Shown here piece by piece: positions 21,329-32,367 of a DNA stretch of 64,000 bases. The notes below the pieces were generated by a model. The model saw nothing but the letters and a program-made list of their open reading frames with translations. It was not told the DNA's origin and did not search any database. The stretch is from Comamonas granuli NBRC 101663 (GTDB lineage: Bacteria > Pseudomonadota > Gammaproteobacteria > Burkholderiales > Burkholderiaceae_C): NCBI RefSeq assembly GCF_000739995.1, contig NZ_BBJX01000005.1:62001-126000 (forward strand), given 5' to 3'. Numbering within the stretch: the first letter of the stretch is position 1; every line of letters starts with the position of its first letter. The translations under genes were made by a program, and so were the position numbers.

Positions 21329-23146
21329 TCAAGGTTTGCCGGTGGCGTCCCTCAGGGCCTTCATAGGGTCTTCCTCGCCCGCCGGCGTGCTGTCCGTGTT
21401 CGTGCTGGGGGCCTCATCGGGGGTGGATGCTGCACCGTCTTGTGGAGACGGCTCCCCGAGCGCATCGTCGCTGTGGCCTGGTTCCATGTCGCCGCCCTGG
21501 TCCAACTGCTCCAGCATTTGCTCGCCAACGGCCTTCATGTCCACATTCACTTGTTTGTCCAGGTTGCTGGTGACCAGGCTGGGGAAGGCAATCAGAATGG
21601 CGACCATGGTCAGTTGCAGGATCAGGAAGGGAATCGCGCCCTTGTAGATCTGCATCGTCGTCACCGGGGCCATGGTCTTGCCCGTCACGTGGTCAACGTA
21701 GGGTTTCTCGGGCGCGACCGAGCGCAGGTAAAACAGCGCAAAGCCAAACGGCGGGTGCATGAACGAGGTTTGCATGTTTACTGCCAGCAGCACGCCGAAC
21801 CAGACGAGATCGATGCCCATCTTGTCGGCAATGGGTGCGAGCACCGGAACGACGATGAAGGACAGCTCGAAAAAGTCCAGGAAGAACGCCAGCACGAAGA
21901 TCATGACGTTCACAAAGATCAGGAAACCCAACTGACCGCCGGGCAGCTTGGAAAGCAGGTGTTCGACCCAGACCGGGCCATCCGCTGCCTGGAACACCAT
22001 GCTGAAGATGGTCGCGCCCACGAGGATGAACATCACGAAGGATGACAGCTTGGTGGTGGTGTTGAGTGCCTGCTTGAGCAATTGCAGGTTGATGCGCCCG
22101 CGCATCGCGGCCATCACCAGCGCGCCCATGGCACCCATGGCGCCACCCTCGGTCGGCGTGGCGACACCCAGGAAAATGGTGCCCAGCACGAGGAAGATCA
22201 GCAGCAGCGGGGGGATCAGCACAAACGTGACCCGCTCGGCCAGCTTGGACAGCAGGCCCAGGTTCGTGACCCGGTTGACGACGGCGATGAGCCAGGCGAG
22301 AAAGCTGCCGCCGCACATGGCGACGACGATTTTTTCATCGGTGGGCACAAATTCCACCAACTCGTTCTTCCACCAGGAATGCACGGCCTCCATGTGCTCT
22401 GCCAGGAACACGGCCACCAGCGTGGACAGGGCCACGAGCACGGCCAGCGAGGTGTAGCCCGAGTGGCCGTTGGCTTCGCGGAAGGTGCGTGCCTCTGGCG
22501 GCAGTGCAGGCACTGCCTTGGGCTTGAAAATGGCCAGAGCGACGATCCACAGGATGTAGAGCCCCATGAGGGCAAAGCCGGGGATGAACGCACCCTTGTA
22601 CATGTCGCCCACGCTCTTGCCCATTTGATCGGCGAGCACAATCAGCACCAGCGACGGTGGGATGATTTGCGCCAGCGTGCCTGAGGCGGCGATCACGCCG
22701 CTGGAGAGGCTGCGGTCATAGCCGTAGCGCAGCATGATGGGCATGGAGATCAGGCCCATGGAGATCACGGAGGCAGCGACGACGCCGGTGGTGGCGGCGA
22801 GCATGGCCCCCACCAGTACCACGGCCAGCGCCAGGCCGCCGCGCAGCGGACCGAACACCTGACCGACCGTTTCCAGCAGATCCTCGGCCATGCCGCTGCG
22901 TTCGAGGATCAACCCCATCAGCGTGAAGAAGGGCACGGCCAGCAGGGTTTCGTTGGCCATGATGCCAATCAAGCGCTGGGGCAGCCACGAGAATATCGAC
23001 GTGGTAAAGACGCCCAGTTCGATGCCCAGCAGGCCGAAGAACAAGCCCGCAGCCCCCAGACTGAAGGCCACGGGAAAGCCTAGGATCAGAAAGCAGATCA
23101 GCCCGGCGAACATCACCGGGGCAAAGTTGGCAGCAATGAATTCCAT
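21329..23146 (-). CDS. dctM: TRAP transporter large permease with extended C-terminus (DctM)
   Basis: Ion-coupled transport channel of the TRAP system. 605 residues, far above the usual 425-450. Typical DctM segments are present: FLILGFPVAFSLG, LLAVPFFTLMGLILERSGMA, ASGTLAQIIPPSLVLIVLADQ, GVATPTEGGAMGAMGALV, and FELSFIVVPVLAPIADKMGID. Two additions are visible: an extra membrane-containing insertion of about 100 residues in the middle (after AIFKPKAVPALPPEA) and an acidic, Ser/Pro/Thr-rich cytosolic tail of about 75 residues. The ATG 23146 is preferred to a TTG at 23155 and has GGAG ten bases upstream. 23 bases after dctQ. Confidence 0.92.
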   Translation of the reverse strand: MEFIAANFAPVMFAGLICFLILGFPVAFSLGAAGLFFGLLGIELGVFTTSIFSWLPQRLIGIMANETLLAVPFFTLMGLILERSGMAEDLLETVGQVFGPLRGGLALAVVLVGAMLAATTGVVAASVISMGLISMPIMLRYGYDRSLSSGVIAASGTLAQIIPPSLVLIVLADQMGKSVGDMYKGAFIPGFALMGLYILWIVALAIFKPKAVPALPPEARTFREANGHSGYTSLAVLVALSTLVAVFLAEHMEAVHSWWKNELVEFVPTDEKIVVAMCGGSFLAWLIAVVNRVTNLGLLSKLAERVTFVLIPPLLLIFLVLGTIFLGVATPTEGGAMGAMGALVMAAMRGRINLQLLKQALNTTTKLSSFVMFILVGATIFSMVFQAADGPVWVEHLLSKLPGGQLGFLIFVNVMIFVLAFFLDFFELSFIVVPVLAPIADKMGIDLVWFGVLLAVNMQTSFMHPPFGFALFYLRSVAPEKPYVDHVTGKTMAPVTTMQIYKGAIPFLILQLTMVAILIAFPSLVTSNLDKQVNVDMKAVGEQMLEQLDQGGDMEPGHSDDALGEPSPQDGAASTPDEAPSTNTDSTPAGEEDPMKALRDATGKP

Positions 23147-23169
23147 GGTGAACAAGCTCCGCGTGCGTG

Positions 23170-23769
23170 TCAGTGGGCCTGGCCGGTCGCGGCCTGCTGC
23201 TGGCGCAGCGCTTCGACGAGTTCCTCTTCGGCGCTCTTGTCATTGAGCTTCACCGTCGGATCGGGCCCCTGGCCCGTGAGAAAGGCGATGCACTTGATGA
23301 GCTCGGACCAGCCCTGCAGCATGAGCAGGGCAAAGCCTGCCGGCAGCGCCACCCAGACCGGCCAGCGGATCAGGCCTCCGGGGTTGGGTGACATTTCGCC
23401 CGAGGCGTAGCGCTCGGCCACGATGGGCCCGCACAGCCAAAGAATGACGATGCACACCGGGGTGAGAAAGAACACGATGCCCAGGATCTCGATCCAGATC
23501 TGCACTTTCTTGGGCAGGCGGCTGTTGAGCACGTCGATGCGCACATGCTCACGGTGGAGCAGCGTGTAGCCAGCGGCGATCAGGAACGACCAGGCAAACA
23601 AATACCACTGCACCTCGAGAAAGCCGTTGGAGCTGGTGTCGAACACCTTGCGCACCACCGCGTTTGCCGCGCTGATGAAGGTGGCCGCAAAAATCAGCCA
23701 GATGCAATATTTGCCCACGAAGGTATTGAGCCTGTCGATGGCACGGGACAGTGAGAGTAAAGCCTGCAT
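23170..23769 (-). CDS. dctQ: TRAP transporter small permease (DctQ)
   Basis: 199-residue small membrane subunit with four helices. Typical features: the WYLFAWSFLIAAGYTLLHREHVRIDVL segment (quoted here only in outline: EVQWYLFAWSFL and HREHVRIDVL) and an acidic/Gln-rich C-terminus. ATG 23769 has GGAGACACC directly upstream and begins the first helix region; an in-frame start at 23838 would add a Cys/His-rich stretch made of the upstream hairpin and is not used. Cotranscribed with dctM; the binding protein is encoded convergently. Confidence 0.92.
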   Translation of the reverse strand: MQALLSLSRAIDRLNTFVGKYCIWLIFAATFISAANAVVRKVFDTSSNGFLEVQWYLFAWSFLIAAGYTLLHREHVRIDVLNSRLPKKVQIWIEILGIVFFLTPVCIVILWLCGPIVAERYASGEMSPNPGGLIRWPVWVALPAGFALLMLQGWSELIKCIAFLTGQGPDPTVKLNDKSAEEELVEALRQQQAATGQAH

Positions 23770-23796
23770 GGTGTCTCCAGAAAAGCAGCCGAAGCA

Positions 23797-23843
23797 CACC
23801 ACAGCGCATGCCCGGGTGGGGCATGCGCTGTGGTGCATTTTTT
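23797..23843 (+). terminator. 17-bp perfect hairpin with T-run upstream of dctQM
   Basis: Perfect 17-bp inverted repeat (23797-23813 and 23819-23835, loop GGGTG), followed on the plus strand by CA and T6. By form it is a strong terminator for transcription antisense to dctQM. On the minus strand it lies about 30 bases upstream of the dctQ start codon and would be part of its promoter or leader. Confidence 0.7.
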
Positions 23844-24028
23844 GGACATGCGCATTCTACGGAGTCCCGTGCGCCCGCGTTGCACTAAGGCCTAATGCCT
23901 GGGGGGCGAAAATGCACGGTTGAACGGGGTTCAATTGCTCTTGTTTGCATAGCGGTGCAACAAGTTCGCGGCCCGTGCGGCTCGGTCGGTCTGCGGCGGC
24001 CTGCAGGTTCCGTGCGTGCAGGGCGAGG
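23844..24028. other. Spacer between dctQ and the thrS leader
   Basis: No gene, tRNA or recognisable RNA motif seen. It should contain the promoter of dctQM (minus) and the -35 region of the thrS leader promoter (plus). Confidence 0.5.
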
Positions 24029-24195
24029 TAGAATGGCCGGGTCATCCACACACCAGGGCGAGAAAGGCAAGATCGGTTATGACACCGCGAACTACGACCA
24101 CCCAGTCCGCCGGCCGCTGAGGCCGGGTGTTCGCGCCTGCACGAGACCGTTTTCCTCTCCCCCTCGAAAAGCGCGGACCGTGTTCCGCGCTTTTT
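24029..24195 (+). promoter_or_regulatory. thrS transcription attenuator (promoter, leader, terminator)
   Basis: A TAGAAT -10 (24029-24034) precedes a leader with a Thr-codon peptide (24079-24120). Four segments can pair alternatively: segment 1 CGCGAAC (24086-24092, within the leader frame) with segment 2 GTTCGCG (24129-24135); segment 2 GTTCGCGC (24129-24136) with segment 3 GCGCGGAC (24171-24178, one G-U); and segment 3 AAAAGCGCGGA (24167-24177) with segment 4 TCCGCGCTTTT (24184-24194), an intrinsic terminator with U5. A ribosome stalled on the Thr codons would mask segment 1 and free segment 2 to form the antiterminator. This is the classic amino-acid attenuation layout. Confidence 0.8.
24079..24120 (+). 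CDS. Threonine-codon leader peptide of thrS
   Basis: 13-codon frame MTPRTTTTQSAGR. Five of thirteen codons are Thr: ACA at codon 2, then ACT ACG ACC ACC in a row (24091-24102). AAGG lies about 12 bases upstream of the ATG. The Thr run overlaps and directly follows segment 1 of the attenuator, and the stop codon lies in the loop of a smaller CCGGCC/GGCCGG hairpin (24110-24126). It sits 135 bases before thrS. Family logic (thrL, pheM, hisL leaders) says the peptide itself has no function beyond sensing charged tRNA-Thr. Confidence 0.8.
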   Translation: MTPRTTTTQSAGR

Positions 24196-24255
24196 GCTTT
24201 ATGGCCGAGGCGCGCATTGCAGTACCTCTCCAGAATTGACAAGGATTTGCTCACC

Positions 24256-26175
24256 ATGATTCAGATTACGCTCCCCGACGGCGCGCAGCGCAGCTATCCC
24301 GGCCCGGTCACGGTGGCCGAGGTGGCCGCCTCCATCGGCTCTGGTCTGGCCAAGGCCGCGCTGGCGGGCAAGGTCGACGGCAAGGTGGTGGACACGAGCT
24401 ACCAGATCACGCAGGACAGCGCGCTGGCCATCGTGACTGCCAAGGACGCCGAGGGCCTGGAGGTCATCCGCCATTCCACGGCCCACCTGTTGGCCTATGC
24501 GGTCAAGGAGCTGTTCCCCGACGCGCAGGTCACCATCGGCCCGGTGATCGAGAACGGCTTCTACTACGACTTTGCCTACAAGCGCCCCTTCACTCCCGAA
24601 GATCTGGTGGCGATCGAGAAGCGCATGACCGAGCTCGCCGCCAAGGACGAGCCCGTGGTGCGTCGCGTGCTGCCGCGCGACGAGGCGGTGCAGTATTTCA
24701 AGAGCCTGGGTGAGCACTACAAGGCCGAAATCATCGCCAGCATCCCGAGCAACGAGGACGTGAGCCTGTACCGCGAAGGCGGCTTCGAGGACCTGTGCCG
24801 CGGCCCGCACGTGCCCAGCACGGGCAAGCTCAAGTTCTTCAAGCTCATGAAGGTGGCCGGCGCCTACTGGCGCGGCGACCACCGCAACGAGATGCTGCAG
24901 CGCGTCTACGGCACGGCCTGGGCCACGAAGGACGAACTGCAGCAGTACCTCACGATGCTGGAGGAGGCCGAGAAGCGCGACCACCGCAAACTCGGCCGCG
25001 AGCTCGACCTGTTCCACATCGACGAGCATTCGCCCGGCACCGTGTTCTGGCATCCCAAGGGCTGGACGCTGTGGCAGGAGGTGGAGCAGTACATGCGCCG
25101 CGTGTACCGCGACAACGGCTACCAGGAGGTCAAGGGCCCGCAGATCCTGGACAAGACGCTGTGGGAAAAGACGGGGCACTGGGACAAGTACCGTGACAAC
25201 ATGTTCACGACGGAGAGCGAGAAGCGCGACTACGCCTTGAAGCCCATGAACTGTCCGGGCCACATCCTGATCTTCAAGCAGGGCATCAAGAGCTACCGCG
25301 ATCTGCCGCTGCGCTACGGCGAGTTCGGCCAGTGCCACCGCAACGAGCCCACGGGCGGCCTGCACGGCATCATGCGCGTGCGCGGCTTCACGCAGGACGA
25401 CGGCCACATCTTCTGCACGGAAGACCACATCCTCTCCGAGTGCACGGCCTACACCGCCCTGCTGCAGAAGGTGTACAAGGACTTCGGCTTCACGGACATC
25501 ATCTACAAGGTGGCCACGCGCCCCGAGGCGCGCATCGGCTCGGACGAAAGCTGGGACAAGGCCGAGCAGGCGCTCATGCACAGCCTACAGGCCTCGGGCT
25601 GCGCGTTCGAGATCGCGCCCGGCGATGGCGCCTTCTACGGCCCCAAGATCGAGTACACGCTCAAGGACGCGATCGGCCGCCAGTGGCAGTGCGGCACCAT
25701 GCAGGTGGACTTCTCCATGCCCGAGCGCCTGGACGCCGAGTACGTGGGCGAGGACGGTGCGCGCCACCGGCCTGTGATGCTGCACCGCGCCATCGTCGGC
25801 AGCCTGGAGCGCTTCATCGGCATCCTGATTGAGCAGCATGCTGGCGCCTTGCCGGTGTGGCTGGCGCCGGTGCAGGTGGCGGTGCTCAATATCACCGACG
25901 CGCAGGCGGACTACTGTCGCGAAATTGCCGAAAAAATCGCCCAGGCCATGCCCCAGCATCCGCTGCGCGTGGCGCTGGATCTGCGTAACGAAAAGATAAC
26001 GTATAAAATACGCGAGCATTCCATGCAGAAACTGCCCTATATTCTCGTCGCCGGCGACAAGGAAAGGGCGTCTGGAGCCGTCGCAGTGCGTGCCCGGGGC
26101 AACAAGGACTTGGGCGTCATGCCGGTCGATGCGTTCATCGACCTGATCGTCCAGGCCGTTGCATCCAAAGCCTGA
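24256..26175 (+). CDS. thrS: Threonyl-tRNA synthetase
   Basis: Class II synthetase charging tRNA-Thr. 639 residues, standard. TGS domain ([21 protein letters not shown]) at the N-terminus, editing domain with [16 protein letters not shown] and GFYYDF, zinc ligands expected at Cys in MNCPGH and two His further on, class II motif 2 [22 protein letters not shown] region, motif 3 near the end of the catalytic core, and an anticodon-binding domain at the C-terminus. ATG 24256 starts right at the TGS domain with AAGGA ten bases upstream. First gene of thrS-infC-rpmI-rplT; upstream attenuator described separately. Confidence 0.98.
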
Positions 26176-26261
26176 TCGCGGATGTGTGCCTGCAAGCCCC
26201 GGCCTGCAGGCAGCGTGCCGTGGGTACTGCGTGTTGTCGTTTTTGACCAAGGGTGAGAGCC

Positions 26262-26855
26262 ATAGCTACTGAATTTCGTGACCGTCGTCAGCGCGAGGAG
26301 CGCAAGCACCGTCTCAATCGTGAGATTACCGCGCCCGAGGTGCGCCTGTCCGGGCCGAACAACGAACCCATCGGTGTCGTGAGCCTGATGGAGGCGCTGC
26401 GCATGGCCGGCGAGCTCGACGTCGATCTGGTCGAGATCGCTGCCACGGCCAACCCGCCCGTCTGCCGCCTGATGGACTACGGAAAGTTCAAGTACCAGGA
26501 GCAGAAGAAGGCTGCCGAGGCCAAGGCCAAGCAGACGGTCATCGAGATCAAGGAAGTCAAGTTCCGTCCCGGGACCGACGATGGCGACTACAACATCAAG
26601 TTGCGCAACATCCGGCGGTTCCTCGCCGATGGCGACAAGTGCAAGATCACCCTGCGTTTTCGCGGCCGCGAGATCACGCACCAGGACCTCGGCCTGGCGC
26701 TGCTCAACCGCCTCCGGGACGACCTGGCCGACACCATTCTGGTGGAGCAGTTTCCCAAGCTCGAAGGCCGCCAGATGATCATGATGATCGCTCCGGCGCG
26801 CAAGAAGGCCGGCAAGGCCGCCTCCGAAGCCACGGGCGCCGAGCAGGCCGGCTGA
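26262..26855 (+). CDS. infC: Translation initiation factor IF-3, probable AUA start
   Basis: IF-3 controls start-codon fidelity on the 30S subunit. 197 residues with family blocks [48 protein letters not shown]-like [19 protein letters not shown], and [14 protein letters not shown]. The first possible start by standard rules is GTG 26253, but it directly abuts the AAGGG. ATA at 26262 is spaced correctly from GGGTGAGAG (Shine-Dalgarno-like) and starts the conserved [10 protein letters not shown]-3 genes often use rare start codons (AUU in E. coli) as an autoregulatory device, so ATA is preferred. GTG 26253 would add three residues. Confidence 0.93.
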
Positions 26856-27032
26856 ACGGAAACAGCGCAAGCATCTGGCCGCCGCGGCGCATGCCGGGGC
26901 AGCCGGTGGCAGGAGTGCATGGCATTCCTGCCCGGGCAGGCGAAAGCCTGCCGTTAAAAGTGGCTCGGGGCCGACAAGTTTGCAAGCTGGTTTGCAAACG
27001 CCTCGCGAGCACAAACAAAGAGGAGCATTCCA
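26856..27032 (+). promoter_or_regulatory. Structured leader of rpmI-rplT
   Basis: Three hairpins in 177 bases: GGCAGGA/TCCTGCC (26908-26932), GGCAGGC-GAAA-GCCTGCC with a GNRA tetraloop (26935-26952), and GTTTGCAA/TTGCAAAC (26978-26999) just ahead of the rpmI ribosome-binding site AGAGGAG. In E. coli ribosomal protein L20 represses rpmI through structures in this gap; a similar role is inferred here. Confidence 0.5.
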
Positions 27033-27236
27033 ATGCCCAAAATGAAAACCAAGAGCAGCGCCAAAAAGCGCTTCCGCGTTCGTCCGGGTGGTACCGTCAA
27101 GCGCGCCCAGGCCTTCAAGCGTCACATCCTGACCAAGAAGACCACCAAGAACAAGCGCCACCTGCGCGGTGCAGTGAATGTGCATGAGACCAACATGGGT
27201 CACATCGCACAGATGCTGCCCTTTGCCGGCCTGTAA
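27033..27236 (+). CDS. rpmI: 50S ribosomal protein L35
   Basis: 67 residues, Lys/Arg-rich. Starts [20 protein letters not shown] as usual for L35 and ends [11 protein letters not shown]. Good RBS (AGAGGAG). 26 bases before rplT. Confidence 0.98.
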
Positions 27237-27262
27237 TCAACTGACGAACAAGGAGTACACAC

Positions 27263-27622
27263 ATGCCTCGCGTCAAACGTGGTGTTACGGCTCATGCCCG
27301 TCACAAGAAGGTTCTGGCTCTGGCCAAGGGTTTCCGCGGCCGCCGCGGCAATGTCTTCCGCATCGCCAAGCAGGCGGTGATGAAGGCCGGGCAGTACGCC
27401 TACCGTGACCGCCGCAACAAGAAGCGCGTGTTCCGCCGCCTCTGGATCGCCCGTATCAACGCCGGTGTGCGCGAGCTGGGCCTGACCTACAGCCAGTTCG
27501 CCAACGGCCTGAAGAAGGCTGCCATCGAGATCGACCGCAAGATGCTGGCCGACCTCGCCGTGCACGACAAGGCTGCCTTCGGCAGCATCGTGGATCAGGT
27601 CAAGGCCAAGCTGGCTGCCTGA
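27263..27622 (+). CDS. rplT: 50S ribosomal protein L20
   Basis: 119 residues. [18 protein letters not shown] at the N-terminus and [10 protein letters not shown]-like [13 protein letters not shown] near the C-terminus are diagnostic. L20 also binds mRNA to repress rpmI-rplT in enterobacteria. Followed by a partial repeat and a terminator before pheS. Confidence 0.98.
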
Positions 27623-27634
27623 GTTCCCGGCGGG

Positions 27635-27662
27635 CTACTATCTTTTTGATAGCTACCTACGC
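27635..27662. repeat. Interspersed hairpin repeat, copy D (partial)
   Basis: Only the left end of the element, CTACTATCTTTTTGATAGCT, is recognisable, followed by a short degenerate part. It lies between rplT and the terminator. Confidence 0.5.
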
Positions 27663-27668
27663 ACCAAC

Positions 27669-27713
27669 AACAAGGGCCAGGGCTTGAAAAGGCACTGGCC
27701 CTTGTTTCTTTTT
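27669..27713 (+). terminator. Terminator between rplT and pheS
   Basis: Stem of about 12 bp AACAAGGGCCAG/CTGGCCCTTGTT (27669-27706) with a 14-base loop, then a T-rich tail TTTCTTTTT. pheS starts 12 bases after it, so pheST either relies on read-through or this element acts as an attenuator. No Phe-rich leader frame is visible. Confidence 0.85.
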
Positions 27714-27724
27714 GAAGAATGCAT

Positions 27725-32290: not shown

Positions 32291-32367
32291 CGGCGTGTAG
32301 CGCAGCCTGGTAGCGCACTTGCATGGGGTGCAAGGGGTCGCGAGTTCGAATCCCGCCACGCCGACCA
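32291..32367 (+). tRNA. tRNA-Pro (anticodon GGG)
   Basis: 77-nt cloverleaf with encoded CCA. Acceptor CGGCGTG/CACGCCG, D-arm with GCGCAGCCTGGTAGCGC, anticodon stem CTTGC/GCAAG around loop ATGGGGT (anticodon GGG), and T-loop TTCGAAT. The T-stem GCGAG/CCCGC contains one A-C mismatch. Reads CCC and CCU proline codons. Confidence 0.97.

Follow-up and report, generated by a model that had tools for sequence, protein, structure and literature searches.

A putative threonine leader-peptide attenuator in front of thrS in Comamonas granuli and other members of its order

The thrS locus and its leader region

The window, i.e. the whole stretch of 64,000 nucleotides of Comamonas granuli NBRC 101663 that was analysed, contains a thrS gene that heads the cluster thrS-infC-rpmI-rplT-pheS-pheT, in which rpmI was identified by eye only. 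On the 5' side of the leader region, genes are carried by the opposite strand and correspond to dctM, encoding the large subunit of a TRAP transporter, and to a smaller ORF for which no NCBIfam model reached the cut-off applied. A strong + strand hairpin followed by a T-tract (23797-23835) occurs between these opposite-strand ORFs and the leader region. The location of the features identified upstream of thrS is given in Table 1. The thrS frame is itself open further 5', up to a GTG at 24127, as an ORF of 682 amino acids that extends across the terminator; the start shared by relatives is the ATG at 24256.

Table 1. Features of the thrS leader region (window coordinates)
Feature	Position	Strand	Basis
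Possible -10 box TAGAAT of a leader promoter	24029..24034	+	Putative; TAAAAT at the matching place in many relatives
Shine-Dalgarno-like GAGAAAGG of the leader ORF	24060..24067	+	Largely kept in the 93-leader alignment
Leader ORF MTPRTTTTQSAGR, 13 codons, Thr at codons 2 and 5-8, stop TGA	24079..24120	+	Window sequence; conservation in relatives
Segment 1, CGCGAAC, codons 3-5	24086..24092	+	Complementary to segment 2 in each of the 17 distinct genus sequences; barely varies
Hairpin whose loop contains the leader stop codon, CCGGCC-GCTGA-GGCCGG	24110..24126	+	Covariation in the genus alignment
Segment 2, GTTCGCGC, partner of segment 1 or 3	24129..24136	+	Sequence; swap test; genus alignment
Segment 3, GCGCGGAC, partner in the antiterminator, also contributing to the 5' arm of the terminator	24171..24178	+	Sequence; swap and stall tests
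Intrinsic terminator, 11-bp hairpin (24167-24194) followed by a T-rich tail	24167..24200	+	Sequence; present at 233 of 235 leader loci
thrS, threonine--tRNA ligase, first gene of the cluster	24256..26175	+	TIGR00418, E 3e-215

The leader ORF reads ATG ACA CCG CGA ACT ACG ACC ACC CAG TCC GCC GGC CGC TGA. An earlier note, made from the sequence alone, had described this ORF with its Thr codons, a 7-bp pairing of segments 1 and 2 and an 8-bp pairing of segments 2 and 3, all of which proved exact to the base: segment 1 is the exact reverse complement of GTTCGCG at 24129-24135, and the eight pairs between segments 2 and 3 include one G-U. The 11-bp terminator stem was likewise found where it had been placed, with arms at 24167-24177 and 24184-24194 and a loop of 6 bases; of its five U, four lie within the stem, and the tail continues as U-GCUUU. 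A generic terminator scan of the window did not call this hairpin; a custom rule counts a 13-pair version of it at -19.6 kcal/mol. None of 200 dinucleotide shuffles folds as well as the 170-base leader (z -3.0). In the 93-leader alignment, the Shine-Dalgarno-like sequence is absent from a few leaders (e.g. L047, L086 and L118). The TAGAAT box would fit a transcription start ca. 40 bases 5' of the leader ATG; TAAAAT is found 5' of the leader in many genus loci, and a consensus scan called no promoter.

Comparison with Rfam revealed no leader family, Thr_leader included, at gathering score in the window, and none at E values of up to 1 in 23000-27500. Among 12 relatives, the sole leader-family match was to Leu_leader (22.2 bits in L148, under the 50-bit cut-off). 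A T-box riboswitch was considered and discarded, no Rfam T-box match being found in 23000-27500 or in the 12 relatives.

Further downstream in the operon, a 12-bp hairpin (AACAAGGGCCAG...CTGGCCCTTGTT) with a T-rich tail is located at 27670-27712, immediately 5' of pheS (start at 27719 or 27725), and could be a second attenuator of the operon; no Phe-rich leader was visible by eye in 27623-27718. A weak match to the Guanidine-II riboswitch at 26678-26727 (25.8 bits, cut-off 32) falls inside the infC coding region and is probably due to chance.

Conservation of the leader and of its threonine codons

Leaders were defined as ORFs starting with M-T-P-R-T before thrS, a rule that fixes five amino acids and leaves the wobble bases free. 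The gene thrS was located in 22 of 26 genomes of the genus and in 157 of 160 genomes of the family, 110 of the latter loci being read. A leader defined in this way precedes thrS in 105 of 130 genus and family loci, including 19 of the 22 genus loci, and is missing from 25. The check on close relatives proposed in the earlier note thus spoke for its reading, both the Thr codons and the pairing being kept. Among the 105 leaders, Thr is present at codons 2 and 5 in all (by the search rule), at codon 6 in 80 and at codon 7 in 49. Within the run at codons 5-8, codons 6-8 are not universal; what is shared is a core R(CGA)-T(ACN), beyond which most leaders have further Thr.

The distribution of this leader type was followed by several further searches. 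With an 18-base motif and up to 3 mismatches, the window's own genome gave a single match, as did the reversed control. From 93 leaders, a model of the first 54 positions was built on sequence alone; it matched 34 of 250 genomes of the order, and all 30 loci fetched were before thrS. In a class-wide sample the same model matched 9 of 370 genomes; three of these were the window and already known family members, and the other six matches were weak and away from thrS. The exact 16-mer TTATGACACCGCGAAC was found in 51 of 399 genomes of the order (reversed control, 0 of 399), again before thrS in 30 of 30 fetched loci. The exact start is not confined to the surroundings of Comamonadaceae, since eight of the 50 families sampled in the order have it, and some of the others have diverged leaders.

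In a named genome collection, at least 118 stretches were matched; among the matches listed, 108 of 118 lay before thrS, nine had no visible thrS and one was cut by the locus end. Titles among the matches listed include Burkholderia, Paraburkholderia, Cupriavidus, Massilia, Janthinobacterium, Herbaspirillum, Variovorax and Acidovorax. The same leader type was also seen before thrS in records titled Alphaproteobacteria or Chitinophaga (L178, L260 and L285), which are probably misnamed or mixed MAG contigs. In some loci (L190, L191, L224, L233 and similar ones), the spacer before the terminator often carries a stretch of the type AGCTAC/AGCTAT...AAATTCATAGT, perhaps a dispersed repeat of those genomes.

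From codon 6 to the stop, Thr accounts for 475 of 2104 codons (22.6%) in the frame of 235 distinct leaders, as compared with 18 of 1869 (1.0%) and 74 of 1869 (4.0%) in the other two frames, these counts being drawn from related sequences and not independent. All four Thr synonyms are used after codon 5. Since the enrichment is found in the leader frame only and draws on the four synonyms, selection appears to act on the amino acid threonine. Only two Thr are present in 24 of the 235 peptides, and in distant families having the exact start, codon 5 is often followed by other residues (MTPRTCFFLR, MTPRTWKFTEIRR).

Alternative pairing and predicted effect of a stalled ribosome

A terminator of at least -9 kcal/mol follows the leader in 233 of the 235 distinct leaders versus 18 of 705 shuffles. 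When native pairs of segments 2 and 3 were compared with swapped ones in 52 divergent representatives, the native pairs were stronger (z -3.07, reached by 10 of 5000 permutations). The result was less clear for segments 1 and 2 (z -1.81, 201 of 5000), and the control, direct pairing of segments 1 and 3, gave no co-adaptation (z -0.02). Duplex tests of single loci against shuffled segment-2 regions reached p 0.05 in 21% (1:2) and 33% (2:3) of 233 leaders, a modest enrichment. In the genus alignment, the 1:2 helix is formed in 100% of cells and provides no evidence by covariation because it barely varies; the 2:3 helix is formed in 87.6% of cells with no pair changed on both sides. The swap test indicates that, at the sequence level, segments 2 and 3 are co-adapted. 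The hairpin around the stop codon has three of its six pairs changed on both sides; three pairs were reached by 48 of 500 shuffles, and the eight changed cells by none of 500.

In the stall test, a ribosome with codon 5 (Thr) in the A site was represented by removing the RNA that it would cover, and the upstream pairing of segment 3 was predicted. For the window, the predicted antiterminator increases from 0.28 in the free RNA to 0.99 upon stalling, and the mean of the 52 representatives increases from 0.58 to 0.85, as compared with 0.70 to 0.73 for shuffled spacers (effect of 0.273 for native versus 0.029 for shuffled sequences). Among all 233 leaders, changes above 0.2 were upward in 134 and downward in 3. 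With either comparison (stalled versus free, or stalled versus a ribosome at the stop codon), a rise above 0.2 was predicted in 40 of the 52 representatives, leaving 12 with no predicted switch by either. Stalling at codon 2 gives the same mean predicted effect as at codon 5 because segment 1 lies at +8 to +14.

The predicted switch therefore runs in the direction put forward in the earlier note, in which a stall releases the 2:3 antiterminator. The conditions that the note had given for the terminator state need to be restricted: a ribosome sitting on the leader stop codon of the window leaves most of segment 2 free (predicted antiterminator, 0.78), so that it is release of the ribosome, or no translation (0.28), that would favour the terminator.

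Proposed mechanism, rival explanations and origin

An ORF with a ribosome-binding site and Thr codons, a terminator, and a conserved antiterminator that excludes it are all found before thrS. Taken with their conservation, with selection for Thr at the coding level, with co-adapted segments 2 and 3 and with the predicted switch, these parts make it likely that the region is a sensor of charged tRNA-Thr in which ribosome-mediated attenuation of transcription controls thrS, perhaps together with the genes behind it. According to this scheme, a ribosome would translate the 13-codon leader behind the advancing RNA polymerase. Under a shortage of Thr-tRNA, it would stall at Thr codon 2 or 5-8 and mask segment 1, leaving segment 2 free to pair with segment 3, which would block the terminator and allow transcription of thrS. 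When Thr-tRNA is ample, the ribosome would finish and leave, segments 1 and 2 and the two terminator arms (3:4) would pair, and transcription would end near 24195-24200. Translation of the leader, termination and the response to Thr-tRNA are thus projections from sequence.

Leader-peptide attenuators are known from amino-acid operons and from pheST, with trpL, hisL, thrL and pheM as examples. Like the thrS leader, these combine a short ORF enriched in the regulatory codon with alternative pairings (1:2, 2:3 and 3:4) and an intrinsic terminator before the target. The thrS leader differs from them by its target, by control codons that begin at codon 2, by a segment 1 lying in the initiation region (+8 to +14) and by an initiation region kept nearly base for base in eight sampled families. 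In E. coli, thrS is under an autogenous translational operator, in which ThrRS binds tRNA-like hairpins and blocks ribosome binding; the gene and the physiological aim are the same, whereas a leader ORF and an intrinsic terminator are found here instead. In Firmicutes, thrS is subject to T-box control (PMC2494555), which also senses tRNA-Thr charging to antiterminate thrS but reads the tRNA directly; according to a table in that paper, 2 of 125 proteobacterial genomes have T-boxes, in each case upstream of leuA. In bacilli, hisS/hisZ have histidine leader peptides (PMC2965389), which also represent attenuation of a gene of the aminoacyl-tRNA synthetase family and were found by genome comparison; the amino acid, the phylum and the sequence are all different from those considered here. 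By its sequence-testable features, the thrS leader would therefore qualify as a leader-peptide transcription attenuator, whose new aspects would be the target gene, its breadth and the start-proximal design. It would constitute a third solution to thrS control beside the E. coli translational operator and the Firmicutes T-box, in many families of one order. The earlier note's supposition that a Thr leader peptide at a betaproteobacterial thrS may be undescribed agrees with full-text literature searches, judged on titles and abstract starts, which returned no description of one; older papers on comparative attenuation, beyond their reach, could hold one.

Alternatively, the hairpin might have been inherited as the terminator of a tRNA gene located upstream, or might stabilise the 5' end of the mRNA, with a leader ORF that does not sense Thr-tRNA. 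This was assessed with 60 further loci of the order from 47 families, picked mainly for lacking the exact 16-mer. A hairpin with a T-tract precedes thrS in 46 of them, often with no leader, and 41 have, by pattern, a tRNA-like 3' end directly 5' of thrS; ARAGORN identified tRNA-Val(GAC) in 9 of 11 loci run, seven of which belong to the 60. In addition, the hairpin call is kept in 17 of the 25 leaderless family loci, with a different hairpin called in two of these. All this favours a tRNA terminator, yet a leader ORF that does not sense Thr-tRNA leaves unexplained the Thr enrichment in the leader frame only, the recurrence of RTTTT peptides in distant families, the co-adaptation of segments 2 and 3 and the stall-dependent switch. 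Moreover, the window has a promoter-like box rather than a tRNA before the leader, its one tRNA at the Rfam cut-off being located at 32291. As a full explanation this is considered quite unlikely. That a short ORF and a hairpin came together by chance, for which no support was found, is vanishingly improbable given a leader conserved before thrS in many genera and the terminator, Thr-frame and 16-mer results.

As a matter of ancestry, the hairpin resembles the terminator of an upstream tRNA gene and may predate the leader; the simplest history would be an order tRNA-Val, terminator, thrS, with a Thr leader ORF later inserted between tRNA and terminator. This descent would account for the hairpin calls in 17 of 25 leaderless loci, otherwise a point against attenuation. 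Within the 60 loci, leaders of the M-T-P-L-T type occur in 2, and leaders of the form M-x(1-4)-Arg(CGA)-Thr(ACN) in 13, from 12 families, against 0.9 on average and at most 3 in 50 rounds of shuffling, a contrast that is somewhat flattering as the pattern was picked after some of these loci had been viewed. Peptides with different starts have RTTTT in common (MSFRTTTTGTLNLG, MFKRTTTTRISR, MAVRTTTTHP, MQLNRTTTTS, and MFKRTTTT with the same core), several M-x-R-T leaders from other families contain little Thr (MTGRTQV, MFRTCSLALYC), and the leaders of several other families keep only CGAAC of the start region. Families with the leader, without it, and with tRNA and hairpin only form a natural series for the way in which an attenuator may arise from a terminator already in place. 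A tRNA followed by a GTGCGG/GCGCGG hairpin with a T-tract is a common arrangement (L331, L354, L356, L366 and others), several of these loci having little room for a leader. In seven leaderless loci (L004, L008, L032, L039, L044, L057 and L097), a GCGCGG/ACGCGG hairpin with a T-tract occurs 23-28 bases after a TAAAAT-like box and would therefore sit near the 5' end of the thrS mRNA.

The start region of the leader is conserved base for base beyond the needs of the peptide, the 1:2 helix or the attenuation model. The wobble bases are kept among the 105 leaders (ACA in 104, CCG in 105, CGA in 100), the four bases before the ATG are GGTT in 103 of 105, and (G/C)GTTATGACACCGCGAAC is nearly invariant in the eight sampled families. 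Of 235 leaders, 218 have G and 17 have C at base -4, giving GGU or CGU, both of which are Thr anticodons, a coincidence that might be meaningful. These features would suit a site for a trans-acting factor at the near-invariant GGTTATGACACCGCGAAC, such as ThrRS in the manner of the E. coli thrS operator, whose binding would act through the terminator. Such a site as the whole explanation is nonetheless very unlikely: no hairpin resembling the anticodon arm of tRNA-Thr was seen, by eye only, around GGTTATGACACCGCGAAC and its GGU/CGU, codons after the fifth vary in sequence yet are often Thr, and the leaders of several other families retain CGAAC alone. The terminator loops of leaderless loci vary. 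A combination with the attenuator can also be envisaged, in which (G/C)GTTATGACACCGCGAAC would be read by ThrRS or by the initiating ribosome as a second signal beside Thr-tRNA charging, in a device built by adding a Thr leader to a tRNA-Val terminator; this dual sensor is regarded as rather doubtful. In the predicted folds of the representatives, the GG before the start codon is mostly paired, and the stretch from -4 to +7 finds most of its partners at the stop codon or past it, which may partly account for the conservation of the start region.
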